Assembly (NCBI GenBank): GCA_021740045.1
Contig: JAIPAP010000014.1
Location: forward strand, 1-46,743
DNA: 46,743 nucleotides
Reading direction: 5' to 3'
Source of the DNA: Bacteroidales bacterium
GTDB taxonomy: Bacteria; Bacteroidota; Bacteroidia; Bacteroidales; JAIPAP01
Under the pieces are notes generated by a model. It saw only the letters and a list, made by a program, of their open reading frames with translations, searched no databases and was not told where the DNA came from. Position numbers and translations under genes: made by a program. This document shows, in pieces, positions 209-45,822 of this stretch (position 1 is the first letter of the stretch; the number at the start of each line of letters is the position of its first letter).

Positions 209-219
209 GAGTAAGTAAA

Positions 220-254
220 AATAGGATAACGGCAGCAACTGCCATTATCCTATT
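220..254 (-). terminator. Rho-independent terminator after the first mini-CTERM gene
   Basis: A 16-bp inverted repeat with one mismatch (aataggataacggcag / ctgccattatcctatt) surrounds a 3-nt loop. Read on the minus strand the stem is followed by TTTTTAC. It lies about 30 nt beyond the stop codon at 285 and closes the four-gene minus-strand cluster that starts at 6437. Confidence 0.85.
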
Positions 255-284
255 CAATTGTTAATCAGGTATAATCATATTGGA

Positions 285-530
285 CTATTCCATTAATTTC
301 TTTTTGCGGGCGTTGTATACCTTGCGGGCGCCGTAGCCGGCACCAAGGGTAATAATGAGCGCTATTCCGCTACCGATAGGCGCTGCTCCGCCCAAAGGAT
401 CGCCATTACCCGTACCTCCTCCAATTCCTTCATTATCAGGATGTGGAGGAACCTGTGCCAGGCTGACCGGTGAAAAAGCGAGCAAACCTACTATCGATAA
501 TATGGCTGTAATCTTCTTAATCCGTTTCAT
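285..530 (-). CDS. Mini exported protein with PID-CTERM-like sorting signal (copy 1)
   Basis: An 81-aa protein with three visible parts. First comes a signal peptide (KRIKK, hydrophobic core, likely cleavage after SLA near residue 25). Then follows a short Pro/Gly/Asn-rich linker. The C-terminus is a tripartite tail: the motif APIGSG, a hydrophobic helix (IALIITLGAGYGA) and a basic end (RKVYNARKKK). This architecture matches the PID-CTERM class of Bacteroidota C-terminal sorting signals, thought to be processed by exosortase-family enzymes; here the Asp of PID is Gly. The mature part is so short that the sorting signal is most of the protein. It starts 14 nt after the stop of the large T9SS protein upstream and is presumably co-transcribed with it. 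It is clearly paralogous to 2946-3188. Function unknown; a structural peptide or membrane anchor is speculation. Confidence 0.8.
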   Translation of the reverse strand: MKRIKKITAILSIVGLLAFSPVSLAQVPPHPDNEGIGGGTGNGDPLGGAAPIGSGIALIITLGAGYGARKVYNARKKKLME

Positions 531-544
531 ATCTATATCATTTT

Positions 545-2860
545 TTATTTAACAACTACTTTGGCGGTATGTACCTTGGATCCCTGGGTAACTCTTACCA
601 GGAAGAAACCTGTTTGATCATTAAGCTTTATCCGCTCCGTATGCTGACCGGACAATTCCTGCTTGTATACCTTTTGTCCCGAAAGCATGAAGACCTCTAC
701 TAGCCCTTCTTTCGCGCTTTTAACTACAATTTCATGATCATCAGCAAAAATGCTTACGGGTGACTTGCTGCTTTCATCCATGCCGGTGGCATTTTTAAAA
801 TAAATGGTAAATCGTTCGGAAAGGTCATTCACATTGTAATTAAAGGTATAGCTGGAGTTTTCCCTTAAATCAACCATAACATCTGTTTTGGTGTCATACA
901 GGTAAATGGGCTGATCGGGGGCAAAGCTTTCCATGCCTTCGAAGTTCAGGGTGTAATCCCCGTTATTACCGGTTTTGAATCCAAGGGTAACCGAAGGATG
1001 GTCTTCGATGCTGGGGAGTGCGTTACTGATCAGTTTATCACCATTGTTGGTGGTGAAGAGTTCCTGGTTATGATCGTATCCACTAAAGAGTTTAGTGGCA
1101 TCATAAAGCTTGTCAAAACCAGCAGTGGCTTCAGGAACAAAGCGAACAGTGGCTTGATCATTTTCGGATTGAATGAATAGCACGTTTTCCAACTCCTCGC
1201 TATTTTTATAGAATCCCGGTGTGTCGTGCGCTTTTACCGTATTATCAAGGCTAAGGGTGCCTGCCGAGGAAGCGTCAACAAAGAATCCCTGCATGGCCGG
1301 AATGTATTGAGTGGCTGAGCTTCCGGGGTCTCCGTTCAGATAATAATTATAGCTGTCGGTTGCATCATCCCAAACATAAAAAGCATTGGTTAGAAATTCA
1401 GCAGGTTTGCTTACCTGATCCCAATCGATTGCACAAGGATACGGATTTCCCAGCAAGTTCCAGGTGCTGTTATCGGCTGTAAACCCGATACTTTGATTAC
1501 CGGTATTTAATAGGCCTGTAAATTCCAGTGTTTTGGATGTTGGTGCGCCGGGATTGTATGAATACATCATGGAGTAGCCTTTCATGGCGGTTGATAAGTC
1601 GGTATTGCCAACATTAGCATAAGTATTATTGGCTTCCTGCCACTCTTTTAAATAGCAATTCAGGAAAACTTCCATGGAATTGATCTCATTGACCGGTTGC
1701 GCTACCAAGTGCCATTTGTCGTTATTGCCCACTTCGGCGCCTTCCACATATTGTTGGGCGGTGGCAGCTACACCATCACTTTCAATCAGTGATCCGGTGC
1801 CCGTAGCATCGGATTGAATGACCAGTGAGGTTTGGTCGCCGTTGTTGGTGAGGGTTCCATCTACCGTAAGGTTTATTCCTTGGTTGATATTAAGCGATGC
1901 TCCATTGTTGATAGTCAGATCGTCGGCGTAACGATCAATATCCTGGGTAATGGCATTGGCAATGGTTACACTGCCACCGTTCGGTGGTACATTACCTGAG
2001 GCCCATGTGGCACCGGTATTCCAGCTTCCATCAGCTACTGTTGAGTATGTTACATCACCATGATAGGGTGAACCACCAAGCGCGTTGAAGTTGGCGTCAA
2101 AACCAGGACTCCCGCCGGTAACATTACCCGGTACAGTAACATCCGAGAAATATGCCGTGCTACTCACTACAACTGCAAAGGCTTTCATCTCGCCTGAATG
2201 GGTAACACCCAATTCTCCATAGGGAATGCTTATTTCAAATCCCTGGTCATCCCCGCCACCATTGTTAAAGGCAATAGAGACTGTGCCGCCTGAAAATATG
2301 GGGCCATCATTGTTCGATAAAGTAGTACCGCTTTGATCGCTGTTACCAAGATATTGTGTTAAGCGGTTACCCGGTTCACTTCTCACAAGGTCATAATAAA
2401 CATTATCAGCGCTTGAACCTGGGTTCATGGCAAACATATAATCCACTTCAAAATCGGCTTTAAAATCAGGGTTAGTGCCTCCATTTCCACCCATATAGTG
2501 GCCGCCACCTGTGCCAAGGCTTGTACCTGCCGATTCTCCGGTTAGTTCATTAAAATCAAGCCATAAACCTATTCCGTTGCTAGAACCGACATCCAGCTTT
2601 CCTTCAATACCGACATACAACATCGAATTGGCATCATCGGGATAATAATAGATGGTATTTACATCTATGTTTGGTCCGAATCCAGCATTACTGTTCTGTT
2701 TAGTGGCCAGTGTAATATAATTGCCATCCGATACATCACCATCAATGGTTGGTTGTGCCTTTAAACTGGAAAAGCTTAAGGTAAATGCCAACAGCATGAT
2801 AAATGTCAATCTTTTAAAGCCTGCAAAAGCAGGGTCTGTGCGTAAAGCTTTTTCTTTCAT
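545..2860 (-). CDS. T9SS-secreted surface protein with CBM9/DOMON-like N-terminus and beta-helix region
   Basis: A 771-aa exported protein. It has a signal peptide ending around SLKAQ. Residues about 35-250 resemble a CBM9/DOMON-like beta-sandwich (TIDGDVSDGNY, then IGLWLDFNE). A short 'SWNTGATWASGNVPPNGGSVTI' type segment typical of Bacteroidota beta-helix repeats follows, with TINNGASLNI and LTVDGTLTN strands. A middle module carries WHLVAQPV ... WNLLGNPYP, and a type A T9SS sorting domain ends in KVVVK. It should cross the outer membrane by the T9SS and be attached to the cell surface. The WHLV...WNLLGNP module and sorting domain are shared with the 1068-aa protein at 3231-6437. It sits between two mini-CTERM genes and may be read through from the upstream copy. 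The ligand is unknown; a sugar-binding role is only suggested by the N-terminal fold. Confidence 0.85.
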   Translation of the reverse strand: MKEKALRTDPAFAGFKRLTFIMLLAFTLSFSSLKAQPTIDGDVSDGNYITLATKQNSNAGFGPNIDVNTIYYYPDDANSMLYVGIEGKLDVGSSNGIGLWLDFNELTGESAGTSLGTGGGHYMGGNGGTNPDFKADFEVDYMFAMNPGSSADNVYYDLVRSEPGNRLTQYLGNSDQSGTTLSNNDGPIFSGGTVSIAFNNGGGDDQGFEISIPYGELGVTHSGEMKAFAVVVSSTAYFSDVTVPGNVTGGSPGFDANFNALGGSPYHGDVTYSTVADGSWNTGATWASGNVPPNGGSVTIANAITQDIDRYADDLTINNGASLNINQGINLTVDGTLTNNGDQTSLVIQSDATGTGSLIESDGVAATAQQYVEGAEVGNNDKWHLVAQPVNEINSMEVFLNCYLKEWQEANNTYANVGNTDLSTAMKGYSMMYSYNPGAPTSKTLEFTGLLNTGNQSIGFTADNSTWNLLGNPYPCAIDWDQVSKPAEFLTNAFYVWDDATDSYNYYLNGDPGSSATQYIPAMQGFFVDASSAGTLSLDNTVKAHDTPGFYKNSEELENVLFIQSENDQATVRFVPEATAGFDKLYDATKLFSGYDHNQELFTTNNGDKLISNALPSIEDHPSVTLGFKTGNNGDYTLNFEGMESFAPDQPIYLYDTKTDVMVDLRENSSYTFNYNVNDLSERFTIYFKNATGMDESSKSPVSIFADDHEIVVKSAKEGLVEVFMLSGQKVYKQELSGQHTERIKLNDQTGFFLVRVTQGSKVHTAKVVVK

Positions 2861-2895
2861 ATCGACTGTTTTTGGTTAATAATTCCATTTAACAA

Positions 2896-2933
2896 TAAAG
2901 CCTTACCCAACCAAAAATGTTGAATAAGGCTTT
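2896..2933 (-). terminator. Terminator hairpin inside the T9SS/CTERM cluster
   Basis: An inverted repeat aaagcctta...taaggcttt with inner aac/gtt pairing lies between the mini-CTERM gene at 2946 and the 771-aa gene starting at 2860. On the minus strand it is followed by ATTGTT rather than a long T-run, so it may attenuate rather than stop transcription into the next cassette. Confidence 0.65.
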
Positions 2934-2945
2934 ACATTTTTTATT

Positions 2946-3188
2946 CTATTTCTCTTCAGCAGCTTTTTTCTTCTTCACATCATAAATTTTCTTGGCTCCG
3001 TATCCGGCGCCCAATCCCAACAGGATGAACAAGCCGCCGCCAATGGGAGCTGTTGCACCTGATGTATTACCGGTAGTGCCGTGATCGGGTGGGGGCGGGG
3101 CCGGGCCGTCGGCTTGAGCCGTGGGGGTTAAAAAGGGTGTGAAAAACAATAAGCCGGCTGTTAATGTGATTATCGCTAATTTCTTCAT
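2946..3188 (-). CDS. Mini exported protein with PID-CTERM-like sorting signal (copy 2)
   Basis: An 80-aa protein with the same plan as 285-530. The signal peptide has probable cleavage after TAQA near residue 26. A linker rich in Pro and Gly (GPAPPPPDHG) is followed by TAPIGGG, the hydrophobic stretch LFILLGLGAGYGA and a basic tail KKIYDVKKKK. The core LGAGYGAxKxY is identical in type to copy 1 and fits the PID-CTERM consensus (PI-x-GG, hydrophobic, GxGYGxKK). It begins 42 nt after the stop of the 1068-aa T9SS protein, mirroring the arrangement of copy 1 behind the 771-aa protein. The mature region before the sorting signal is only about 25 residues. No enzyme or binding domain is present; the partner enzyme (an XrtF-like exosortase) is not in this window. 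Confidence 0.8.
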   Translation of the reverse strand: MKKLAIITLTAGLLFFTPFLTPTAQADGPAPPPPDHGTTGNTSGATAPIGGGLFILLGLGAGYGAKKIYDVKKKKAAEEK

Positions 3189-3230
3189 AATTATATGTTT
3201 TTCAATGTTTTAGTTTCGGTTTAATGATAC

Positions 3231-6200
3231 TTATTGAATGATCACCTTTTGGGTTTTTACTTCACTTCCTGTATGAACCCTTATCACGTAGGCTCCCGCT
3301 TCATCAATCTCAAAACGGTTGATCTTCGCCGGATCGAGCGATTGTTCAGCTACAACTTGCCCCATGGTATTGAAAACGGTGACGGTTCCTTCTTTGGCTT
3401 CTTCAGCATTGATGTAGATGCTGTTTTGGTAGGCGTAGATGCTGAGTGTTTCCTCTGTGGGCTTATCACCATCAATCCCTACGGCGGATTTAAAGTGGAG
3501 GAAGAAGCGGTTGTTATAGGTACCCGGTTCAGCAATATTAAAGGTGTATTCCGGTGTTTCGCTCAGGTTAACCTGTTCACCTGTTTTTCGGTCTTCGAGG
3601 GTGATGGGGGTGGAGGGATCGAAGCTCTCCAGTTTTTCAGTACTGAATGTGAATTCACCAATGTTTGCGGCTTCAATTCCAATGTTGACAATAACTGGTT
3701 TTTCCAGCGGTGGTAAGGCCTGAATATCAAATCGGTTTGAATTGGGCTCTACCAACATGGAATAAATTCCCAAATAATCATTGCCTTGAAACTTACCGCC
3801 GTCATAAGCAGGATCTAGTCCGTTAGTCATTCCTTCAATGAAAACTATTTCAGTGTCGTCATGATTTTCCTTAGAATCTGTTACTTTTAAGATTAGTCTT
3901 TTATTTTCTTGTTGCTGACTCTCACTCTTATAAAAGGTGGCAGATCCATGCTTTCTGTCAGCAGTATTAAAGCTTAATGTATTACCGTCGGTTGCAGTTT
4001 TTACCATAAAGGCCTGGCTATTATCAATATATGTAGCCCCCGAACCATTGGTAACGGTTTGATAATTTCCCGCCGATTCATCATATAAATAGACGCCTGT
4101 ATATCCAGCATCAAGTACACTTGAGTTGGTCGAGATAAAGTTATTTGTTGCGTCGGCATCATCATTTGCAGCCATGGTAGCGGGGAATGGATTACCAACC
4201 AGGTTCCATCCTTCACCCGTACTCTCCGCGGTTCTGGTCATGGTGATGCTTTGATTTGAATTATAGGGAGTACCAGTTAGGGAGTACGTATTCGATTTTG
4301 GTGCGGTGTAGTAAGAGAGTGCATATCCTTCACCGGCACCGAAAGTATTCCCGGTCCATGTTGGATCATCACCCCTTATATCAATCCACCAGCCTGTGGT
4401 GCCCTGTTCAGCGAAATCCTCGTCCCAACTGAAAAACTCCGTAGGATCATTCTCACCAAAGGCAGCATCGAAATTGGTGCCTGAGAGATCTACTGGAGAG
4501 GAGATGTAATGCCATTCCTGCTCATTGGCGAGGTAGCGTTGAACAGTTACGTCTCCGCTTACCGTTCCATTTGTGATTAATGAAACTGTACCATCAGCAT
4601 CGGAGGGTATTATTAATGAACCGTTAGTAACAGTTAAAGCGCCTTCAATTGTCAAGTCATTACCTAATGTGACACTTCCACTTGATGTTCTGTTAACGGT
4701 AAAATTATTAAGTGACCTTGTAGCCGAAGTGGATTGATCGAAAAATACCGATCCAAAAGCACCCGTTCCAAGTATCTCCAGGCTGGAGGTTGTTGATCCT
4801 TTTATGACGCTCCCATCTACCATGGTAATGGATGATCCAACGCCACCCTTACCTATTGTAAGCTTGAATCCATTAAGGTTTAGTACACTTGCTGCTGAAT
4901 TGAGTTGCAAGGGATCAGCGGTTTCATCAGCAAGCAGGTTTTGATCCATTATCACTTCCCCACCTGATTTGTTGATACGCATTACGTCAATCTCCAAAGG
5001 ATCGCTTGTGGAATTGATATTTTGATTACTGCCTCCCTGGAAAAAGACCGCTCTGCCATTGGCAGTAAAGGTGCCGTTATCATCGAAATCGCCTTCGAGC
5101 TTTAAATCACCTCCCCCCGATCCGGAAAGGGTTATGGTTCCATTATTTACAACATTACCCTTTACAGTAAGAGCCGCAGTCATGGCGTCAATATTAAGGC
5201 TTAATCCTGAACCACTGTTAATCGTCAAATTTCCTGCGCATTGACGAGCTGTATTGGTCCCTCCACTACCTAAATTTAAGGTAGTATTATTACTTATTGT
5301 AACATTATTTGGGTATCCGGCGCCGGTTGTAGCGCTCCATTCGGTGGATCGGCCGTATGTTGTACCTGAGTTATAAATTAGTGTTGAACTTGACCCATAA
5401 GTGGGGGCAATAGTCGTGTAACCACCTGAGTTAATTTGTAAACTTCCGTTTACAGTTAGGGTTCCATCTCCAGTGATTCCTCCACCAGTTTGAAGTGTTT
5501 GCCCGGAATTAATGGTAAATGCTATTCCATTATTAATGGTTAAACTCGATACAGTGGCATTTTGATCAAGTGCCAAATTATCTTCAATCGTTACGGGTTG
5601 CCCGGAAGCAGGAACCTCTCCGGCATCCCAGCTGGCAGGATCATCCCAGGTTCCATCTCCTGAACCTGAGGTAGTCCATGAACTTTCAACTGTATAAGAA
5701 TAGTTACTTTCACCATTATTGGCTATATCCAATGTAATAAGGTCATGATTTGATGAGTTCGTGGCTGCTACTGTAGTTGAATAAGCATAATAAGTAACAG
5801 TTGTTCCTGCAGTATTTGTTCCTGCAGGTATTGTTGCTGAAGCGGTACTCCATGTATCGCCTGTATTTGTAGCCTCAGTTATTGCTGAAGTACTAAAGCC
5901 ATCATCAGAATATCGAACAAAGACTTTTTCTTGTGCTGATTTGTTTCCAGCTAGGGTTACATTAATTGTAGCAGATTTTCCAGGATATACAGCGCTCGGT
6001 GTACTTACTGCTGTTGACGCTGTTGCATGAAATGATTGAGGAGCATTATCTGTCTCCATAAATACAGCATCCCTATCAGAATAAGCGAGTCCATCAATTT
6101 GAATTGTATAATAATTACCGACAGTAGGGTTTGTATTTAGTTGTGACGTGTTATTCAATCCAGCTTGCCCTTCAAAAGTCAATGTAAATTCTTCATCATA

Positions 6201-6437
6201 ATTAATTGAGCTATTGTACCATTCGTTATATTCACTATCCCATTCTATATAAAACGTGTTATCAGTGCTAGTAGCTTGGAAAGTGCGATTTTCAATTCCG
6301 CTTATTGGATCATCAATATTAAAAGTACCATCAGGCCCAAAATCTGGATTCATATAGTAGTTTGATGGTTGCCCGTATCCGGAATTTAAAAAAGCAAAAA
6401 TAATAGGAACTAATAGCGTAATTATCCTTTTTTTCAT
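3231..6437 (-). CDS. Large T9SS-secreted beta-helix-like surface protein
   Basis: A 1068-aa exported protein. It has a signal peptide (ending near NSGYGQ), an N-terminal region of about 240 residues with an Ig-like segment (SATINVTLAGNKSAQEKVFVRYSDDG), then 'GTWDDPASWDAGEVPASGQPVTI'. After this come many short Thr/Gly/Asn-rich strands (SSLTINNG, GTLTVNGSLQINSGG, NVTISNNTTLNLGSGG) typical of a right-handed beta-helix. A WHYISSP ... WNLVGNPFP module and a type A T9SS sorting domain ending VKTQKVIIQ complete it. It is expected on the cell surface as an adhesin or matrix-like protein. It is the first gene of the minus-strand cluster and is followed at 42 nt by a mini-CTERM gene. The shared C-terminal modules with the 771-aa protein point to duplication of the whole cassette. 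The exact role is unknown. Confidence 0.85.
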   Translation of the reverse strand: MKKRIITLLVPIIFAFLNSGYGQPSNYYMNPDFGPDGTFNIDDPISGIENRTFQATSTDNTFYIEWDSEYNEWYNSSINYDEEFTLTFEGQAGLNNTSQLNTNPTVGNYYTIQIDGLAYSDRDAVFMETDNAPQSFHATASTAVSTPSAVYPGKSATINVTLAGNKSAQEKVFVRYSDDGFSTSAITEATNTGDTWSTASATIPAGTNTAGTTVTYYAYSTTVAATNSSNHDLITLDIANNGESNYSYTVESSWTTSGSGDGTWDDPASWDAGEVPASGQPVTIEDNLALDQNATVSSLTINNGIAFTINSGQTLQTGGGITGDGTLTVNGSLQINSGGYTTIAPTYGSSSTLIYNSGTTYGRSTEWSATTGAGYPNNVTISNNTTLNLGSGGTNTARQCAGNLTINSGSGLSLNIDAMTAALTVKGNVVNNGTITLSGSGGGDLKLEGDFDDNGTFTANGRAVFFQGGSNQNINSTSDPLEIDVMRINKSGGEVIMDQNLLADETADPLQLNSAASVLNLNGFKLTIGKGGVGSSITMVDGSVIKGSTTSSLEILGTGAFGSVFFDQSTSATRSLNNFTVNRTSSGSVTLGNDLTIEGALTVTNGSLIIPSDADGTVSLITNGTVSGDVTVQRYLANEQEWHYISSPVDLSGTNFDAAFGENDPTEFFSWDEDFAEQGTTGWWIDIRGDDPTWTGNTFGAGEGYALSYYTAPKSNTYSLTGTPYNSNQSITMTRTAESTGEGWNLVGNPFPATMAANDDADATNNFISTNSSVLDAGYTGVYLYDESAGNYQTVTNGSGATYIDNSQAFMVKTATDGNTLSFNTADRKHGSATFYKSESQQQENKRLILKVTDSKENHDDTEIVFIEGMTNGLDPAYDGGKFQGNDYLGIYSMLVEPNSNRFDIQALPPLEKPVIVNIGIEAANIGEFTFSTEKLESFDPSTPITLEDRKTGEQVNLSETPEYTFNIAEPGTYNNRFFLHFKSAVGIDGDKPTEETLSIYAYQNSIYINAEEAKEGTVTVFNTMGQVVAEQSLDPAKINRFEIDEAGAYVIRVHTGSEVKTQKVIIQ

Positions 6438-7758: not shown

Positions 7759-7832
7759 TGAAGCGGGTGTATTAGTGTATTAAATAGTAGAATTGGAGAG
7801 GGGGTTGGAGGTCCTATTGCCATATCGCTTCA

Positions 7833-8020
7833 TGAATGATTGAATGAATGATTGAATGGATGACTGAATGATTGAATGATTGATTGAATGATTGACTGAC
7901 TGATTGATTGTTTGAATGATTGAATGGATGACTGAATGAATGATTGATTGAATGGATGACTGAATGAATGATTGATTGAATGATTGGTTGATTGAGTGAT
8001 TGAGTGATTGAATGGATGAA
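7833..8020. repeat. Tetranucleotide array, 47 units of TGAN/TGNN
   Basis: 188 bp of uninterrupted tetramers, nearly all TGAA, TGAT or TGAC with occasional TGGA, TGAG, TGTT and TGGT. Larger blocks recur, for example tgaatggatgactgaatgaatgattgat twice. Period 4 is never broken by an indel. On the minus strand the array contains no stop codons, which produces the two spurious overlapping ORFs in the track (IQSFIQSF-like translations). Confidence 0.95.
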
Positions 8021-10431: not shown

Positions 10432-10439
10432 TATATTTG
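10432..10439 (+). promoter_or_regulatory. Bacteroidota -7 box TATATTTG
   Basis: An exact TAnnTTTG match 18 nt before the ATG at 10458. It overlaps the TTG used as start in the ORF track, which argues that translation begins at 10458 instead. Confidence 0.65.
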
Positions 10440-10457
10440 AGGAAAAAATCCGTAATC

Positions 10458-12116
10458 ATGGAAAAAATTTACAAATTGATCAATCAGGGCTTCATTTTTA
10501 TACTGGTGGCCAGCATTTCGCTTTTTTTCAGCATACCCCTTGGAGCCCAAACACTTCCCGAGCATTGGGTTGATGATACCGACATTGATGTCTATAAGGA
10601 GTCGAGCCAGGTTCAGGAAGGAGAGTATAGCGCAAAAGTTGTTGTTAACTCGGGCGATCAAAGCGAATGTGATTTTGAGAATGAAGTTGAGATCCCTGTT
10701 ACTGCCGGCGAAACCTATAAGATAAGCTTTTGGGCCAACACAAGCGAGCATGTTCGCATTACAAGTGTATTGGCCTGGAGTGACGGCAATAACACTTACC
10801 CCGGCGTTTATGTTGGACCGGCAACAAATGGATGGGAAGAATTTACGTATGAAGGTGAAGTGCCCGGGGGCGTTGATGGAGTTATCCTTCGCTTGCGCTT
10901 TTATGATGTAAATGGATTCGAACCGGGTGAAACCAATTATGTTGATAATCTTACACTTGAATCTCCTGTGGGCAATAGCCTGGAAGTGTCCAATGGTGAC
11001 TTTGAAGATTGGCCCGGTACTGCACCCGAGCCAACCAATTACCCGGGTGAATTCACGGCGCAAGCCAATGGATTAAACGTTGATCTTACCTGGAACGATG
11101 CACAAGGTGAACAACCCCCGCATGCCTATCTTATCCTGGCAGGAACCGATGACAATTTTCAAGCTCCTGTCGACGGTGAACCGGTTGAAAATGATACTGA
11201 CCTGAGTGATGGAGCCGCGGCTGTTAATATTATGCAAGGCGCGGAAGCATACGCCTTTACATCGCTCGAGGGCTCAACAACCTATTTTTTCATTATTTAT
11301 CCCTATACCAATACCGGCGCGGAAATCAATTACAAAACCGATGGCAATCCCCCGGAGGCTTCTGCCGAAACCGGTGAAATTGTGATCATTCATGAAGAAA
11401 ATTTTGATGATGGTTTAGGAAGCTGGTGGGAGTATAGCGTTGTTGGGGAACAGGTGTGGATACAATCGGAATATGGCGGTGAAACCTTTGCCCAAATAAC
11501 TGGATACGATGGTAGTAGCCATGAAAACGATGATTGGCTTATCTCTCCTGCCCTCGATCTGGATGCTTTTCAGGATGAAGTGCTCAGCTTTGTAACAGCC
11601 ATGAACTACACCGGCCCGGCGCTTCAGCTAAAAATCTCAACCAATTATTCCGGATCGGGTGATCCGTATAATGCTGAGTGGGAAACACTCGAAGCAAACT
11701 GGTCACCGGGTAGCTGGGAATGGACGCACTCAGGAAGCATAGATATCTCTTCCTACAATGGTTCACAAGTCTATCTTGCCTTTCAATACACCTCCACCGA
11801 TGAAGAATCGGCAACCTGGGAAGTTGATAATATCGAGGTAATGGGTGAGGAGATTGTAGGTTTAACGGAGTTCTCCGATGAACTGAAAGAAGTTTCACTC
11901 TACCCTAATCCCGCAAATGAGCATATTCATATTGATACCCCGGTTAAAGCTGAAGTAAAGATATTTAACGTGTTGGGTAATGAAATTAAATCAGCAAATA
12001 TAAGCACGGGTGTTAGCAAGCTCGATGTAAAAACCCTGAAAGAAGGAGTTTATATGATAAGGATTTCATCCGAAGAAAATAATGCATTAAAGACGATAAA
12101 GCTGATTGTGAGATAA
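10458..12116 (+). CDS. T9SS-secreted protein with choice-of-anchor J / cleaved-adhesin-type domain
   Basis: 552 aa from the ATG at 10458; the track's TTG start (10437) lies inside the promoter box. It has a signal peptide ending near PLGAQ. A carbohydrate-binding-like beta-sandwich follows at about 25-180 (TLPEHWVDDTDIDVYKES ... NYVDNLTLESP). Next is a fibronectin-like part (PTNYPGEFTAQANGLNVDLTWND). A choice-of-anchor J domain (ENFDDGLGSWWEYS ... WLISPALDLD ... VYLAFQYTSTDEESATWEVDNIEV) covers about 320-470. A T9SS type A sorting domain (VSLYPNPANEHIHI ... LKTIKLIVR) ends it. It is probably a cell-surface or released protein. The anchor J domain has a close relative inside the lipoprotein at 27632-29560. 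It is monocistronic, with a terminator after it. Function unknown; no catalytic motif is seen. Confidence 0.85.
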   Translation: MEKIYKLINQGFIFILVASISLFFSIPLGAQTLPEHWVDDTDIDVYKESSQVQEGEYSAKVVVNSGDQSECDFENEVEIPVTAGETYKISFWANTSEHVRITSVLAWSDGNNTYPGVYVGPATNGWEEFTYEGEVPGGVDGVILRLRFYDVNGFEPGETNYVDNLTLESPVGNSLEVSNGDFEDWPGTAPEPTNYPGEFTAQANGLNVDLTWNDAQGEQPPHAYLILAGTDDNFQAPVDGEPVENDTDLSDGAAAVNIMQGAEAYAFTSLEGSTTYFFIIYPYTNTGAEINYKTDGNPPEASAETGEIVIIHEENFDDGLGSWWEYSVVGEQVWIQSEYGGETFAQITGYDGSSHENDDWLISPALDLDAFQDEVLSFVTAMNYTGPALQLKISTNYSGSGDPYNAEWETLEANWSPGSWEWTHSGSIDISSYNGSQVYLAFQYTSTDEESATWEVDNIEVMGEEIVGLTEFSDELKEVSLYPNPANEHIHIDTPVKAEVKIFNVLGNEIKSANISTGVSKLDVKTLKEGVYMIRISSEENNALKTIKLIVR

Positions 12117-21308: not shown

Positions 21309-23312
21309 ATGAAAACACAAATCACATATTTTATCATAACCGTATTTATTCTTGTGAGCACTAAAATGTATGCTCAGCAAGATCGTATTCCCGGAGAATT
21401 AATGATACAGCTAAAGCCTGATGTTTCCGGGCATCAGGCCATATCCTCACTCGAAAATGATTTTGAATCTTTTGAGCTTCAGGCAAAACGGTTGCTCTCT
21501 CAGCGGATGAATGTTTGGCTCTTTACACATGATAAGCAGGTAAATGCCTCGGAGTTACTTTCCATTGTTCGCAATCACGAGGCTGTAAGTCTTGCCCAGT
21601 TTAATCATTATGTTGAATTGAGGAAAAATCCGCTGTTGGATTCCATCCCCGATGATCCTGCTTTTGATGATTTATGGGGGCTTCATAACACCGGGCAGTT
21701 TGGGGGACTGGAAGATGCCGACATCGATGCTCCTGAGGCCTGGTCGAAAAACACGGGTGGGTATTCGGCACTGGGCGATACCATTGTTATGGCCATAGTA
21801 GATAATGGTACATCGATGACCCACGAAGATATCAGGCAAAATATCTGGATTAACCATCATGAAATACCCGGAAATGATATCGATGATGATGGAAATGGTT
21901 ACGTGGACGATGTCAACGGCTGGAATGCATACAATCATTCAGGTGATATACCCTCTGGTTATCATGGTACACATGTGGCCGGAATAACGTCAGCAAGAGG
22001 TAATAATGGAATAGGGGTTGCCGGTGTTAATTGGCATGCCCGGATCATGCCCATTGCAGCATCTTCACAAGCTGAGAGCGTGGTGGTTGAAGGCTATGGC
22101 TATGTGCTGGAAATGCGGACCTTGTATAATGAAACGGGAGGAGAACAAGGAGCGTTTGTGGTTGGTACCAATGCTTCTTTTGGGGTTGATTTTGGTGATC
22201 CCGAAGATTATCCCATCTGGGGAGCCATGTATGATTCATTGGGCATGCAGGGTGTTCTCAATGCCGCGGCCACTGCTAATGGTGGCTGGAATGTGGATGA
22301 GGTGGGTGATGTGCCCACGGCATTTGATTCGCCTTACCTGATTTCGGTCACCAATACCACAAACTGGGACCAGAAAAGTCAGAATGCAGCCTATGGCCGG
22401 ACAAGCATCGACCTGGGAGCGCCTGGAACCTACATAAAATCCACGGTGCCCGGGAATGATTATGATTTCCTTTCAGGCACTTCTATGGCTACACCCCACG
22501 TAACAGGGGCTTTTGGATTGCTTTTCTCTGCCGCCGATTCGGCCTTGATAGAGGCTTATCATCAATATCCCGACTCCATTGCGCTTATGATGAGGCATTA
22601 TCTTCTTTATAATATTGATCCGAATCCCACACTGGAAGGCATTACGACAAGCGGTGGACGATTGAACGTTAATAATGCCATAATGGCAATGGACTCACTT
22701 CCTGCCCACCCTCTCTTAACCACTCTTACTGACACTATAGCCGATACCCTCGCCCTTGCCGCAACCGATACCGTGAATTTGACGGTTAAAAATAGTGGTG
22801 GTGGAACCCTCAACTATAATGTTGCTATACCGGACACCATCTCCTGGCTTACAACTAATTTTGAACTGGGTACCATGTATGCAGGAGAAACGGATACCAT
22901 TTCCCTTGTCCTCTCTTCCCCAGACTTGCTTGAAGATCATTACCGGGGTATGGTTCATATTATTCATGAAGAAGATACCCTCACCGTCCCGGTTTATCTT
23001 ACCATTAACCGGTTTATTACCGGTGTTGAAGATGAAAGAGCATCAGGACAGGCTATTTCTCTGAAACCAAATCCTTTTAAATCTTCAATTCAGATTTCGA
23101 TTGAGTCAAATTCAATCAAGGCGACCAAAGTTGAAGTTTTTAATCAGATAGGGCAGAAGATCAAATTGATCCATAATGGAGTTATCAATGAATCAACCAA
23201 GCTTCGCTGGGATGGCAGGAATGATGGCGGTATCAGACAAAATCCGGGGGTTTATTTTCTTCAAATATCAACAGACCGGGATGTTCACACGCGGAAAGTG
23301 ATTATGCAGTAA
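21309..23312 (+). CDS. T9SS-exported S8 subtilisin-like serine protease
   Basis: A 667-aa exported endopeptidase. It has a signal peptide ending near TKMYAQ and a propeptide-like region at about 25-100 (PGELMIQLKPDVSGHQAISSLENDF). The peptidase S8 domain runs from about 115 to 455, with all three catalytic residues visible: Asp165 in AIVDNG, His219 in YHGTHVAG and Ser392 in SGTSMATPH. About 100 residues with an Ig-like beta-sandwich follow (TVNLTVKNSGGGTLNYNVAIPD ... DTISLVLSSPDL). A T9SS sorting domain with a FlgD-Ig-like core (LKPNPFKSSIQISIE ... TKLRWDGRNDGGIRQNPGVYFLQ) ends in RKVIMQ. It is predicted to be secreted and surface-attached, and to degrade environmental proteins or mature other exoproteins. 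It is monocistronic with its own promoter. Confidence 0.93.
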   Translation: MKTQITYFIITVFILVSTKMYAQQDRIPGELMIQLKPDVSGHQAISSLENDFESFELQAKRLLSQRMNVWLFTHDKQVNASELLSIVRNHEAVSLAQFNHYVELRKNPLLDSIPDDPAFDDLWGLHNTGQFGGLEDADIDAPEAWSKNTGGYSALGDTIVMAIVDNGTSMTHEDIRQNIWINHHEIPGNDIDDDGNGYVDDVNGWNAYNHSGDIPSGYHGTHVAGITSARGNNGIGVAGVNWHARIMPIAASSQAESVVVEGYGYVLEMRTLYNETGGEQGAFVVGTNASFGVDFGDPEDYPIWGAMYDSLGMQGVLNAAATANGGWNVDEVGDVPTAFDSPYLISVTNTTNWDQKSQNAAYGRTSIDLGAPGTYIKSTVPGNDYDFLSGTSMATPHVTGAFGLLFSAADSALIEAYHQYPDSIALMMRHYLLYNIDPNPTLEGITTSGGRLNVNNAIMAMDSLPAHPLLTTLTDTIADTLALAATDTVNLTVKNSGGGTLNYNVAIPDTISWLTTNFELGTMYAGETDTISLVLSSPDLLEDHYRGMVHIIHEEDTLTVPVYLTINRFITGVEDERASGQAISLKPNPFKSSIQISIESNSIKATKVEVFNQIGQKIKLIHNGVINESTKLRWDGRNDGGIRQNPGVYFLQISTDRDVHTRKVIMQ

Positions 23313-26011: not shown

Positions 26012-26101
26012 TGCTTTTATGTTTTTATATCAGGATAACCTCTGCAGCTTCCCGTCATTGGACATAAGTCCTTTTATTATTTTATTTTTTTCTCCATACA
26101 C

Positions 26102-26262
26102 CATGCACCATGCACCATGCTCCATGCTCCATGCTCCATGCTCCACGCTCCACGCTCCATGCACCATGCACCATGCTTCGTTCGCTATGCTCCATGCTCT
26201 ATGCTCCATGCTCTATGCTCCATGCTCTATGCTCCATGCTCTATGCTCCATGCCCTATGCTT
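26102..26262. repeat. Heptanucleotide array, 23 units of CATGCTC type
   Basis: 161 bp of strictly phased 7-mers: CATGCAC, CATGCTC, CACGCTC, TATGCTC. The second half alternates CATGCTC and TATGCTC regularly. The only disrupted unit is cgttcgc. It is the reverse complement family of the array at 41746-41850 (CATGGAG). It lies between two minus-strand phosphoesterase genes. The overlapping ORFs called through it (MLHAPCSMLHA...) are artefacts of the low complexity. Confidence 0.95.
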
Positions 26263-39077: not shown

Positions 39078-39326
39078 CTCTGTCACCGCTACGCGGTTTT
39101 TGTCCCGCCTTGCTGTATTATTCTACCATACTGTCATCGCTACGCGATTGGTTGTTGGATTTCAGTGGATTAAGGTGGCTTGAAAATTCAAAATTCTAAA
39201 CTCCTCATTCTTAATTCTGAATTCAACAAGGTCTGTCAACAAGGCTACTAAGATTGAGGAAGATATGAATAGATTGATAAAGATTGCCCGCCAATCATTC
39301 TCCTCCCAATGGCTATCGGGACTCCA
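39078..39326 (+). repeat. 249-bp direct repeat, copy 2
   Basis: Same length as copy 1, with differences concentrated around the middle (ttctgaattcaacaaggtctg versus ttcaaaattcaatcagacctg, and the agattgagga segment). It keeps both gctacgc hairpins and the period-7 run. Confidence 0.9.
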
Positions 39327-39363
39327 ATCTCCACTCTCCACTCTCAAATCTCCATTCTCCAAT
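39322..39363. repeat. Heptamer array CTCCANT, six units
   Basis: ctccaat, ctccact, ctccact, ctcaaat, ctccatt, ctccaat in strict phase, overlapping the end of the second 249-bp copy. A shorter run (ctccatg, ctgcaat, ctgcaat) occupies the equivalent place after copy 1 (38873-38893). Confidence 0.8.
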
Positions 39364-39465
39364 CAAATTATCTCTTAGTTGGCCGGCCACCTTTCATACG
39401 GCGGGTAAATAGTCAGTAGCTCTGCAATGCTCTACACCCATATAAATCATCCAGGTTGCACGTAC

Positions 39466-39517: not shown

Positions 39518-41653
39518 TCACTCAATCACCACCTTCCTCCTGACCACAGTCTTGTCATTCTTCACCTGCAACAGGTAAACGCCTGCTTTCCATTGCCCGG
39601 TATTCAGTTTGTTTTGATTCCAGCCTGGGGTTGTTTGCCATTTCCGGTTTAGGATGATCCGGCCATCCAGGGATGTCATGATCAAGTTAAATGTTTCATC
39701 ACCGGGAACTTGCATTCCAATGATGCAATGCTCCTCAGCCGGATTGGGGAATATGCTGACGGGGTATGCAGGTTTTTTTTCTTCCAGTGAATAGGGATGT
39801 TCCCAATAGCGGATCTCCCAGCCGTTGGCGGTGGTATTGTTATTGGTGTGGAAGATCATAAAGGCCTTTCCGCTCTGGATGATAAATTCGCCCGGGTCTT
39901 CTGTGCCCGAAAAGGTACCCAGTTCCTCCTGGGTTTCCCCGTTGAAAAGCATTAATTTATCGTATTCTTCTTCGGTTTCGAAATAATTAAAACCCACCAC
40001 CAAAGGCATGTAGGAGTGTGGGGTTATATCGATGCTGTATTGGCAAAGGGTTCCGTTTACATAGTTTTTATCGCCACTGCCATCATCAAAAATCCCGAAA
40101 GCGGAATCATTATACATGGTGTGTCCGCTGCAGTATTCCGGCAAGATGGATTCAAAGCTGACAAAAAAGCCATCGCCGGTACCTGTTTCGTCACACTGGA
40201 AGCTTATAAAAACCTCCTCGCTGGTCGATTCCAGCTCATCCGGCAACTCGTAACCGGAGAATTGCCCCAGCACTGGTGCCTGCGGATCAGGTCCGTTAAA
40301 GATGGTGACCGTATCGCCGGCTTCCATATCCATGCGGTCAAACACCAGTTCGATGCCCGATATGGAGTCATAATCCTCATGCTGTGGCTTGATGAGCCAT
40401 GAGCAGTCGGTATTATCAAGATAGTCTTTCGGGCCGCTGCCGTCTTCCAATGTGCCACGTATGCCGTTCAGTTCATTGCCGGTTTCGCAATAAAGCGGAT
40501 ATTCATACTGATTAGTGTCGGGGTACATATCGGGGATCACTTCCTGCACGTAGTTGAAGTTGGAGCCGCCGGGGTTGAGGTTGTCCGTATAAAAATAGCC
40601 ATCGAAGGAGCCGCTCCAGCCCCAGTTGAAATGGAAATAATCGTCGGTCTGGTAGCCGTCGCATACAAAAGCATGTCCCGATATATACTGGTAATCCGAC
40701 CAGCCGGCATAATACATGGGCTTTTTCACATCCAGGTTGACTACCAGTATGCTGTCCCAATCCAGGTTGGTGCTGTCGCGGAAAATGTATTGGGTTTCGG
40801 GGCCGTATTTGAAATAGGTGCGGAAGGAATAACCCGCTTTATGGTTCCACATGCCTGAGCCATTGGGGCCATAATCCATATCTACCGACACGCCGAGGTG
40901 GAAAAGCAATTCGGCAATGGCATCATTGGGCTCATTGATGGAATTGCGCATTTTGTTCCATTTGTAGGTGGTGTTGCCGAAATCGGCAGAAATTTCACCA
41001 TATTCCGGATGATTGTAGCTGTAATATCCTGTTCCGGTAATGGGCCAACGGTAGTAATACATGAGTTGTCCCATGGCTGTGGCCACGCAACCGGCATAGG
41101 CATGACCTCCCGGTCCTTGTGGGTCCTCCGGGCACCAACCGTTGTAATAATTACCCTGATCCCATTGGGAGATCAGTAAAGGCTCCACTGCACGGGCGTT
41201 TTTTAGCGGTTCTAATGTAAAAGGTTCGCTGGTTTGAAGGTGTTTCCATTCAGCGGCAATTTCTTTTCCCGCTTTCAACCCACTTTCTTTGGCAAAGGCA
41301 ATGTCCGCATAATGATGCTCCATCCAGCCGGAAAAATTGGCAGGTTGTTCCCTTTCACGGTAATGACCCTTAAAGGAATAGCCCAGGACCGGTTTCACGG
41401 CATCATCTCCTGCCACGATCACAAAACCGGCGGGTGAAAGGTTGAAAATATGGGCTGCCACCTGCTGCTGATAGGTTTGGGTGAAATGTTCCTGAACTTG
41501 GATTTCATGATAATCCAGGGATTTAAATTGATTGATCCTTTCAAAATAAAAATTACGGGCCACCTGCCGGGCGGTTTTTGTGGTTACTTCGGCTGCCTGA
41601 ACAGACAGGGCAAGCCCCAGCAGGATTGCAAACAGGAAAGCTTGTTTTCTCAT
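39518..41653 (-). CDS. T9SS-exported C10-family (streptopain-like) cysteine protease
   Basis: A 711-aa exported protease. The signal peptide (ending VQAAE) is followed by a Spi/C10 propeptide at about 22-130 (TTKTARQVARNFYFERINQ ... IFNLSPAGFVIVAGDDAVKPVLGYSFKG). The peptidase C10 domain covers about 155-385, with catalytic Cys189 in AYAGCVATAMGQLMYYYRWP and His327 in YISGHAFVCDGY, plus FHFNWGWSGSFDGYF. Two CUB-like beta-sandwich domains follow: YCETGNELNGIRGTLEDGSGPKDYLDNTDCSWLIKP and YCSGHTMYNDSAFGIFDDGSGDKNYVNGTLCQYSI. A type A T9SS sorting domain ends it (VSIFPNPAEEHCIIG ... VRRKVVIE). It is likely a surface-bound endopeptidase that matures by propeptide removal. It is monocistronic. Confidence 0.93.
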   Translation of the reverse strand: MRKQAFLFAILLGLALSVQAAEVTTKTARQVARNFYFERINQFKSLDYHEIQVQEHFTQTYQQQVAAHIFNLSPAGFVIVAGDDAVKPVLGYSFKGHYREREQPANFSGWMEHHYADIAFAKESGLKAGKEIAAEWKHLQTSEPFTLEPLKNARAVEPLLISQWDQGNYYNGWCPEDPQGPGGHAYAGCVATAMGQLMYYYRWPITGTGYYSYNHPEYGEISADFGNTTYKWNKMRNSINEPNDAIAELLFHLGVSVDMDYGPNGSGMWNHKAGYSFRTYFKYGPETQYIFRDSTNLDWDSILVVNLDVKKPMYYAGWSDYQYISGHAFVCDGYQTDDYFHFNWGWSGSFDGYFYTDNLNPGGSNFNYVQEVIPDMYPDTNQYEYPLYCETGNELNGIRGTLEDGSGPKDYLDNTDCSWLIKPQHEDYDSISGIELVFDRMDMEAGDTVTIFNGPDPQAPVLGQFSGYELPDELESTSEEVFISFQCDETGTGDGFFVSFESILPEYCSGHTMYNDSAFGIFDDGSGDKNYVNGTLCQYSIDITPHSYMPLVVGFNYFETEEEYDKLMLFNGETQEELGTFSGTEDPGEFIIQSGKAFMIFHTNNNTTANGWEIRYWEHPYSLEEKKPAYPVSIFPNPAEEHCIIGMQVPGDETFNLIMTSLDGRIILNRKWQTTPGWNQNKLNTGQWKAGVYLLQVKNDKTVVRRKVVIE

Positions 41654-41698: not shown

Positions 41699-41850
41699 TA
41701 GAAGGTAGAAAGTAGAAGGTAGAAAGTAGATTGGGCTGCGTATGGCACGGAGCATGGAACACGGAGCATGGGGCAAGGAGCAAGGAGCATGGAGCATAGA
41801 GCATGGAGCATAGAGCATGGAGCATGGAGCATGGAGCAAGGGGCATGGAG
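41699..41850. repeat. Two adjoining heptamer arrays (TAGAAGG and CATGGAG)
   Basis: 41699-41733: five 7-mers (tagaagg, tagaaag, tagaagg, tagaaag, tagattg). 41746-41850: fifteen 7-mers (cacggag, catggaa, catgggg, caaggag, catggag, catagag and others). The second is the reverse complement family of 26102-26262, including the same alternation of catggag and catagag. They lie just upstream of the protease promoter. Confidence 0.95.
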
Positions 41851-44649: not shown

Positions 44650-45822
44650 TTAATCTTTTATGAAAGTTAAATGACCATGGTGTCCATGTCCCCCAATTTT
44701 CTTTCCATTTACAGTCATCGGATAAAATGTAGTTTTAATATTTCCTGTAGTACCAGTTCGCATATTAAAACCCCATACCTTACTTTGATTTGATATGTAA
44801 TTCTTTGTAAAGCCCCATTCACCTGTCTTTTTAAGGAAGTAACCATTATTCCATGCATTAAATTTCTTATTATTTGCATAGCCTTGGAAACTTTTACCAT
44901 CTTTATCTAAATACCTGTAATCAACACAAACACCAGAATAACCTTTAGGGCCGCCATGTGTTTTATGGTCTCCTCCTGGGGCGGTTCCGTCTGCTGCAGA
45001 CATATCCCCTAAATCCACATTAAAGCCGTCTATTTCTTTAGTCATTTCAGTGGTCAGACCAAATAATGCTGCTGCTGCATCAGGTTTTAAATAATGGTCC
45101 CCTCCTTCATCTTCTGTTCCATAACGCCCAAATCCTTCGCCACTTGCAGGAAATTTCACTAAGCCATCATCGTTAATATCCAATGTTGTAGTTGTTGTTT
45201 CATCTCCATTTACAACAATAAATGTATGACTTTCGCTATCCTTAACATTAATCCTGTCTATAGACTGGTTCTCAATATTTATATTGAAAGTATCTAGCCC
45301 CATATAATCCATGAATAAAATAGGATTATTAGCAGCATAAGCAAACCCAGATTGAACATGATTTTTTTCAGCAAGGGGGTCAATGGTTGTAAATCTTGCT
45401 ATTGCAGGGTCGTAGTAGCGGAACCCGTAATCATACCAATCCAGTTCAAAGTCATCCTGGAGTTCCTTGCTACCCCGAAAAATAGAAAATTTTGAATTTT
45501 CGTAATTTTTCGCGGGTCCTCGTAAAATCACGAAATGAAACATTTCTGATTTTACGGGATTGTATAAAAGTTTGTTTTCCGGTGACAAACCGGCTGTATA
45601 ATACAAGCCGGAGAGTTTCATGCCAAAGGGATAATAGCTGTTCTCCTGTAATATCTCACCCTCCTCGTCAAATACTACCCGGGTATTGCCGAGATGGTCG
45701 GTAAGAAAATACTGGTACTCAAATCCGCCGCCGGTTTTGGGGACTACACGGCCGGTTTCGGTAAGGATATAGGCCAGATCATTATCTACCAGGCTTATTT
45801 GTTTATTCAGGTTCGTAACCAT
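44650..45822 (-). CDS. Truncated RHS-core gene with candidate metallopeptidase toxin tip
   Basis: 390 aa. Residues 35-175 carry the RHS-associated core: YQYFLTDHLGNTRVVFDEEGEI, ENSYYPFGMKLSGLYYTAG, GSKELQDD, WYDYGFRYYDPAIARFTTIDPLAEKNHVQSGFAYAANNPILFMDYMGLD. A 28-residue segment (89-116) interrupts the usual YN-GKELQDD motif. After the core the variable tip has GDMSAADGTAPGGDHKTHGGPKGYSGVCVDYRYLDKDGKSFQ and ends GGHGHHGHLTFIKD. The VDxRYL and HHGHLTF motifs resemble LAS (M15/M74) murein endopeptidases, with candidate ligands His286/His289, Asp301 and His382/His384. The large N-terminal RHS cage is missing. The frame is open for about 80 nt upstream of the ATG and closes at 45901-45903 next to the MITE, so this is a 3' remnant or an orphan tip cassette. 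Confidence 0.8.
   Translation of the reverse strand: MVTNLNKQISLVDNDLAYILTETGRVVPKTGGGFEYQYFLTDHLGNTRVVFDEEGEILQENSYYPFGMKLSGLYYTAGLSPENKLLYNPVKSEMFHFVILRGPAKNYENSKFSIFRGSKELQDDFELDWYDYGFRYYDPAIARFTTIDPLAEKNHVQSGFAYAANNPILFMDYMGLDTFNINIENQSIDRINVKDSESHTFIVVNGDETTTTTLDINDDGLVKFPASGEGFGRYGTEDEGGDHYLKPDAAAALFGLTTEMTKEIDGFNVDLGDMSAADGTAPGGDHKTHGGPKGYSGVCVDYRYLDKDGKSFQGYANNKKFNAWNNGYFLKKTGEWGFTKNYISNQSKVWGFNMRTGTTGNIKTTFYPMTVNGKKIGGHGHHGHLTFIKD
45475..45558 (-). repeat. 84-bp palindromic element inserted in frame in the RHS core
   Basis: It consists almost entirely of two adjacent hairpins: cccgaaaaatagaaaatt / aattttcgtaatttttcgcggg (45474-45516) and cgtaaaatcacgaaatg / catttctgattttacg (45521-45556). 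It encodes 28 residues (PVKSEMFHFVILRGPAKNYENSKFSIFR) without a stop and splits the conserved RHS motif YNGKELQDD into YN ... GSKELQDD. Confidence 0.8.

Follow-up and report, generated by a model that had tools for sequence, protein, structure and literature searches.

Exosortases act on substrates that have been inserted in the inner membrane: they cut near the sorting motif, and the new C-terminus is then joined to a carrier in the membrane or to a polysaccharide. It is usually larger proteins that bear PEP-CTERM tags. PID-CTERM and the exosortase XrtX are already present in the NCBI catalogue, and the mini protein described here is a variant of that kind. Flavobacterium johnsoniae mutants without xrtF or the gene next to it form no zorbs and far less biofilm, as do mutants with deleted T9SS genes, and the substrates of XrtF were stated to be still unknown (PMC10936215). 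The T9SS has partner genes of its own, type B substrates being encoded with dedicated partners (PMC10202324, PMC12618676). Neither a mention of PID-CTERM nor a link of exosortases to Rem-type T9SS proteins was found in the literature searched, which leaves out most subscription journals and is thus weak evidence of absence.

Two cassettes of a large T9SS protein and a mini protein

The window is the whole stretch of DNA analysed, the 46,743 nucleotides of contig C157 in a 161-contig, 3.9 Mb assembly. Its minus strand codes, in this order, for a 1068 aa T9SS protein, a mini protein (mini) of 80 aa, a 771 aa T9SS protein and a mini of 81 aa. The features of the two cassettes are the following.

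3231..6437, minus strand: large T9SS surface protein 1, 1068 aa (TIGR04183, 36.6 bits)
3477..4550, minus strand: Rem-type module preceding the CTD, protein 1 (E 8.9e-97 with module profile A4, E 1.1e-64 with a profile whose training left out the window rows)
3234..3422, minus strand: T9SS CTD of protein 1, without the PxP (YPNP) motif (TIGR04183 profile positions 10-72)
2946..3188, minus strand: mini 1, 80 aa, with signal peptide, Pro/Gly-rich segment DGPAPPPPDHGTTGN, APIGGG, one TM helix and a Lys-rich tail (NF046080, 24.0 bits; 26.4 in the genome scan)
2895..2935, minus strand: 17-bp terminator-like hairpin, 11 nt past mini 1 (-23.4 kcal/mol for the stretch, z -5.0; weak T run only)
545..2860, minus strand: large T9SS surface protein 2, 771 aa (TIGR04183, 25.7 bits)
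782..1765, minus strand: Rem-type module preceding the CTD, protein 2 (E 1.8e-105 with module profile A4, E 2.7e-71 with a profile whose training left out the window rows)
548..733, minus strand: T9SS CTD of protein 2, without the PxP motif (TIGR04183)
285..530, minus strand: mini 2, 81 aa, with signal peptide, Pro/Gly-rich segment, APIGSG, one TM helix and a KKK tail (NF046080, 20.1 bits, E 4e-4)
219..255, minus strand: 17-bp hairpin followed by a T run, 30 nt past mini 2 (-31.3 kcal/mol for the stretch, z -6.1)

An earlier note on this DNA had described four ORFs on one strand spaced by 42, 85 and 14 nt, and all of them lie where it had placed them. Its claim that the large proteins share a C-terminal module and a sorting domain also holds: they align as homologues along 550 C-terminal columns (31% identity, E 2e-50) and both pass the cutoff (23) of TIGR04183 for the type A T9SS CTD. 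The PF18962 model of the same CTD type gives 20.4 and 15.6 bits, below its gathering cutoff of 27 for both proteins. The type C model (NF033708, cutoff 40) gives only 17.4 bits for protein 2 and is passed by no CTD of the genome. Large protein 1 has, over its length, 41% identity to the product of L046:3898-7014, which itself has a mini behind.

Three more T9SS proteins are encoded in the window (10437-12116, 21309-23312 and 39518-41653); they have no mini, which fits their absence of a Rem module. Intergenic repeats are found at 7832-8019 (an array of 8/28-nt repeats of the TGAATGAT type) and at 26092-26261, 41745-41850 and 39322-39364 (7-nt repeat arrays of the CCATGCT, GCATGGA and CTCCAAT types). 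The region 44650-45822 codes for a 390-aa protein that, by eye, resembles an RHS-repeat core with its own C-terminal part.

The earlier note had considered the minis to be PID-CTERM-like, and the search with the NCBI model agrees: NF046080 matches both window minis, at E 2.6e-5 (24.0 bits) and 4e-4 (20.1 bits), though the curated cutoff is 26. Mini 1 reaches 26.4 bits in the genome scan, where the adjoining residues of its frame are read with it, and the cutoff is passed by three further minis of this genome; all 15 aligned minis match at E <= 0.01. The literal Pro-Ile-Asp motif is absent from both window minis, which have PIG instead, while PID is found in relatives of other families. As both carry PIG, they are named PID-CTERM-like and not filed as members; by sequence they represent a 'PIG' variant whose scores reach the NCBI cutoff or fall slightly short of it. 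Signal peptide, motif, TM helix and basic tail, as read from the sequence and from alignment A1, are all present in the minis, and each of the mini matches listed lies in an open frame of no more than 182 aa. Most minis (87 of 98) have a Gln just behind a small residue, at a median of 13 residues ahead of the motif. The predicted mature segment is very short (median ~13 residues) and of low complexity. Following the Bacteroidetes Q-rule, such an N-terminal Gln is expected to become pyroglutamate. No relative of the mini was found in the PDB.

Pairing of mini and T9SS genes

Whole-genome searches identify nine minis in the source genome, eight of which follow a T9SS gene at a distance of 8-76 nt. 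The ninth (C23:590-781, locus L036) is an orphan with VLIGGG replacing APIGGG, located behind a truncated efflux-transporter-like gene at a contig end. T9SS CTD matches number at least 150 in the 3.9 Mb. A module of ~340 aa ahead of the CTD, searched with a profile trained on other genomes only, is present in 8/8 partnered and in 0/71 unpartnered T9SS genes examined, and a wider module profile, which takes in both window copies, finds exactly the same eight genes in a search of the whole genome. These counts use profiles, the strict WNLxGNP regular expression under-counting the module. The PxP motif is absent in all eight partnered CTDs versus about 7 of 85 others (Fisher 6e-8), and a CTD model built from other genomes, with PxP in 0/24 of its training CTDs, predicts mini presence in the source genome with an AUC of 0.996. 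The PxP-less CTD was also considered as a mark of partnered T9SS proteins; it holds in Bacteroidales and fails across the phylum, where 59 of 73 partners have PxP. The general marker of partnered T9SS proteins is the module. The T9SS gene at C22:3925-4116, whose CTD is very like the partnered class and which has neither Rem module nor mini, fits this marker.

The mini profile A1 was searched in 393 Bacteroidota genomes, 79 of which are positive. The 96 loci analysed were fetched by their mini and not by its neighbours, and their counts include the minis of the source genome outside the window. A T9SS gene of the same strand lies directly ahead of 74 of the 101 minis in these loci, with gaps nearly all of 120 nt or less. 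The module is found in 67/67 T9SS partners from other genomes. It is found as well in 12 of the 23 unpartnered CTD genes of those loci, so the module can occur without a mini. A second set, of 18 loci in named Bacteroidales and related MAGs, was likewise retrieved through the minis, here using a pattern (4-row alignment) built on those of the source genome; 18 of its 21 minis follow a T9SS gene. True mini-partner pairing beats all of 2000 within-genome re-pairings (P 0.0005; P 0.036 in the source genome). It is well supported that the pair is a conserved unit whose two genes are inherited together. The linkage is not obligatory, since 27 of the 101 minis have no adjoining T9SS gene; these orphans are found beside exosortase, riboflavin synthase, metK or fumarase genes. 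Stand-alone minis (L199, L200, L229, L235, L237-L239, L241, L245) are themselves conserved, with a single mini convergent with riboflavin synthase in one family and metK or fumarase neighbours in others.

The expectation of the earlier note that mini homologues adjoin T9SS genes elsewhere is thus confirmed in both sets. Its view that the mini partners are T9SS proteins stands as far as the pairing is real and needs correction in that T9SS export as such does not distinguish them, whereas the RemA/RemZ-type module does. Small genes will often adjoin T9SS genes in a genome where these are as common as here, and the pairing could in principle reflect such chance neighbourhood. This explanation is extremely improbable: 74 of 101 against an assumed background of 6% gives P ~1e-67 (the loci not being independent), the pattern is replicated in the named-organism set and recurs in unrelated genera, and the pairing is specific to genes with the module. 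The earlier note had also implied one four-gene operon; the minis would in this case be membrane plugs or fillers. The single strand and the short gaps favour such an operon, yet a stable hairpin lies past each mini (z -5.0 and -6.1) and folding shows none between T9SS gene 1 and mini 1, while the gap of the second pair is just 14 nt; moreover, the other six pairs of the genome sit elsewhere, mostly singly. The four-gene operon is accordingly very improbable, and two bicistronic units are the likelier organization. This reading is drawn from folding only, since a consensus terminator scan did not flag the window hairpins behind the minis. Among 76 pairs, hairpins of at least -10 kcal/mol strength are found behind 56 minis and between T9SS gene and mini in 30 cases (paired length-matched Wilcoxon 0.0014).

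Exosortase and the Rem-type C-terminal region

The genome codes for an exosortase (C11:5248-5832) that scores over the cutoffs of PF09721 and TIGR04178 (56.0 bits for the latter, cutoff 23) and whose Cys103, Arg144 and His163 are invariant among four homologues. Its cluster also holds VanZ and a polyprenyl glycosylphosphotransferase-like (undecaprenyl-phosphate sugar-transferase-like) protein. Among the specific models the best match is XrtX (NF046081, 84.7 bits, below the cutoff of 170), while XrtF (TIGR04128) gives 58.4 bits, below its cutoff of 90. The XrtF-like exosortase sought by the earlier note is therefore present as an exosortase, its nearest model being XrtX instead of XrtF. The proposal that two sorting systems are used in one unit is upheld at the genomic level: they meet in one small unit, with PID-CTERM-like minis and an exosortase in the genome. 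The roles of membrane plug, anchor or assembly partner that the earlier note suggested for the minis are conjectural.

An exosortase is found in 79/79 mini-positive genomes versus 145 of the 393 overall (hypergeometric 7e-43) and, by genus, the 38 mini-positive genera all fall within the 53 of 180 that have one (4e-27); these P values overstate independence because the genomes are related. Minis are present in 77 of 103 genomes with exosortase and module, in 2 of 42 with exosortase only, in 0 of 39 with module only and in 0 of 209 with neither. It is well supported that the mini is confined to genomes with an exosortase and nearly confined to those with Rem-module T9SS proteins. In 26 genomes that have exosortase and module no mini is found, perhaps because it is too divergent for the model.

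The profile of module and CTD (A3) matches RemA (8gl6, E 1.4e-44) and RemZ (8gl8, E 2.4e-44) over ~400 aligned residues. By this profile similarity, the partnered proteins share a RemA/RemZ-type C-terminal region. In 8gl6 and 8gl8 the CTD alone is well resolved. The predicted structure of module and CTD is weak (pLDDT 65.7, pTM 0.46), the predicted CTD alone matching well the solved CTDs of RemZ, RemA and RgpB; no fold is claimed for the module because the prediction is weak outside the CTD. No mini is described beside remA or remZ in the literature examined.

Possible role of the mini and comparison with known systems

The pairing across the phylum suggests that T9SS and exosortase act jointly on a single class of surface proteins. 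The reading that we favour, and to which we give an even chance, is that the mini is processed by the exosortase and devoted to its Rem-type T9SS partner, for which the processed peptide acts as docking or tether point. Besides the pairing and co-occurrence, the similar phenotypes of xrtF and T9SS deletions in F. johnsoniae and the precedent of the type B substrates speak for it. The first gene of each pair would code for a surface protein of RemA/RemZ type whose CTD directs it through the T9SS, and the second for a tiny exosortase substrate in which a Sec signal peptide is followed by a very short mature segment rich in Pro and Gly, the PIG/PID motif, a TM helix and a basic tail. After insertion in the inner membrane the mini would be cleaved close to this motif; the short peptide that remains would be conjugated to a membrane or polysaccharide carrier. 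This peptide probably has a tether or docking role, and it would serve as the dedicated point of attachment for the Rem-type module. The T9SS sortase would remove the CTD, leaving the end described for this reaction (PMC10202324), which would place the Rem module next to the C-terminus of the mature partner. The adhesin class may thereby have a second anchor, which keeps it at the cell surface or within the exopolysaccharide. In its full form, as dual-sortase anchoring, in which the Rem-type adhesin, exported and processed by the T9SS, uses its module to dock specifically to a peptide that the exosortase has conjugated and that comes from the mini gene right behind, and the minis are the missing substrates of Bacteroidota exosortases, the model is tentative. 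A role of the mini N-terminus as amine acceptor of the T9SS sortase was considered and set aside, since most minis (the 87 of 98 with Gln) should start with pyroglutamate.

The mini might instead escape cleavage. As a single-pass protein of the inner membrane it would then hold or pilot the Rem module on the periplasmic side until its export by the T9SS, in the manner of a dedicated secretion chaperone. One-to-one pairing and joint inheritance are compatible with such a role, the linked position would favour co-production, and a periplasmic Skp homologue is used by the T9SS (PMC10994853). Left uncut, the mini would stay in the inner membrane and have no contact with a partner exposed at the surface, which speaks against the tether. 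However, the strict dependence on exosortase (79/79 mini genomes; 0/39 module-only genomes) points to cleavage of the mini, and its mature segment is short and of low complexity, so that a chaperone is unlikely. It is also doubtful that the mini is an independent exosortase product (e.g. a small matrix peptide-polysaccharide conjugate), co-regulated with the adhesins and making no physical contact with them. The orphan minis and the location of the genome's own exosortase in an exopolysaccharide-type cluster would be accounted for, but the restriction to module genes (8/8 versus 0/71 others) and the pair-specific inheritance are left unexplained.

The pairing of minis and Rem-type proteins gives concrete candidate exosortase substrates, with their partners, in Bacteroidota, and it links exosortases to RemA-type surface adhesins. 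If the preferred reading, the mini as dedicated docking or tether point, is true, a second kind of dedicated partner gene would exist in T9SS biology, beside PorP/SprF for type B substrates.

The minis resemble PID-CTERM (NF046080), catalogued beside exosortase X (NF046081), in their short C-terminal motif, TM helix and basic tail, and differ from it in that those of the window are a PIG variant scoring at or below the cutoff. With the PEP-CTERM/exosortase system they share the three-part sorting signal, the exosortase and the exopolysaccharide gene neighbourhood; unlike the larger proteins that usually bear PEP-CTERM tags, the mini matches listed are confined to their small open frames. The large proteins resemble the F. 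johnsoniae adhesins RemA and RemZ (PDB 8gl6, 8gl8) in module and CTD, a likeness that concerns the C-terminal region, whereas the CTD here has no PxP. The organization of the pair, in which the substrate gene adjoins a dedicated partner gene, is that of type B T9SS substrates and PorP/SprF; the PorP/SprF partner is an outer-membrane beta-barrel shuttle, whereas the partner here is a tiny exosortase-type substrate and the CTD is of type A by TIGR04183.
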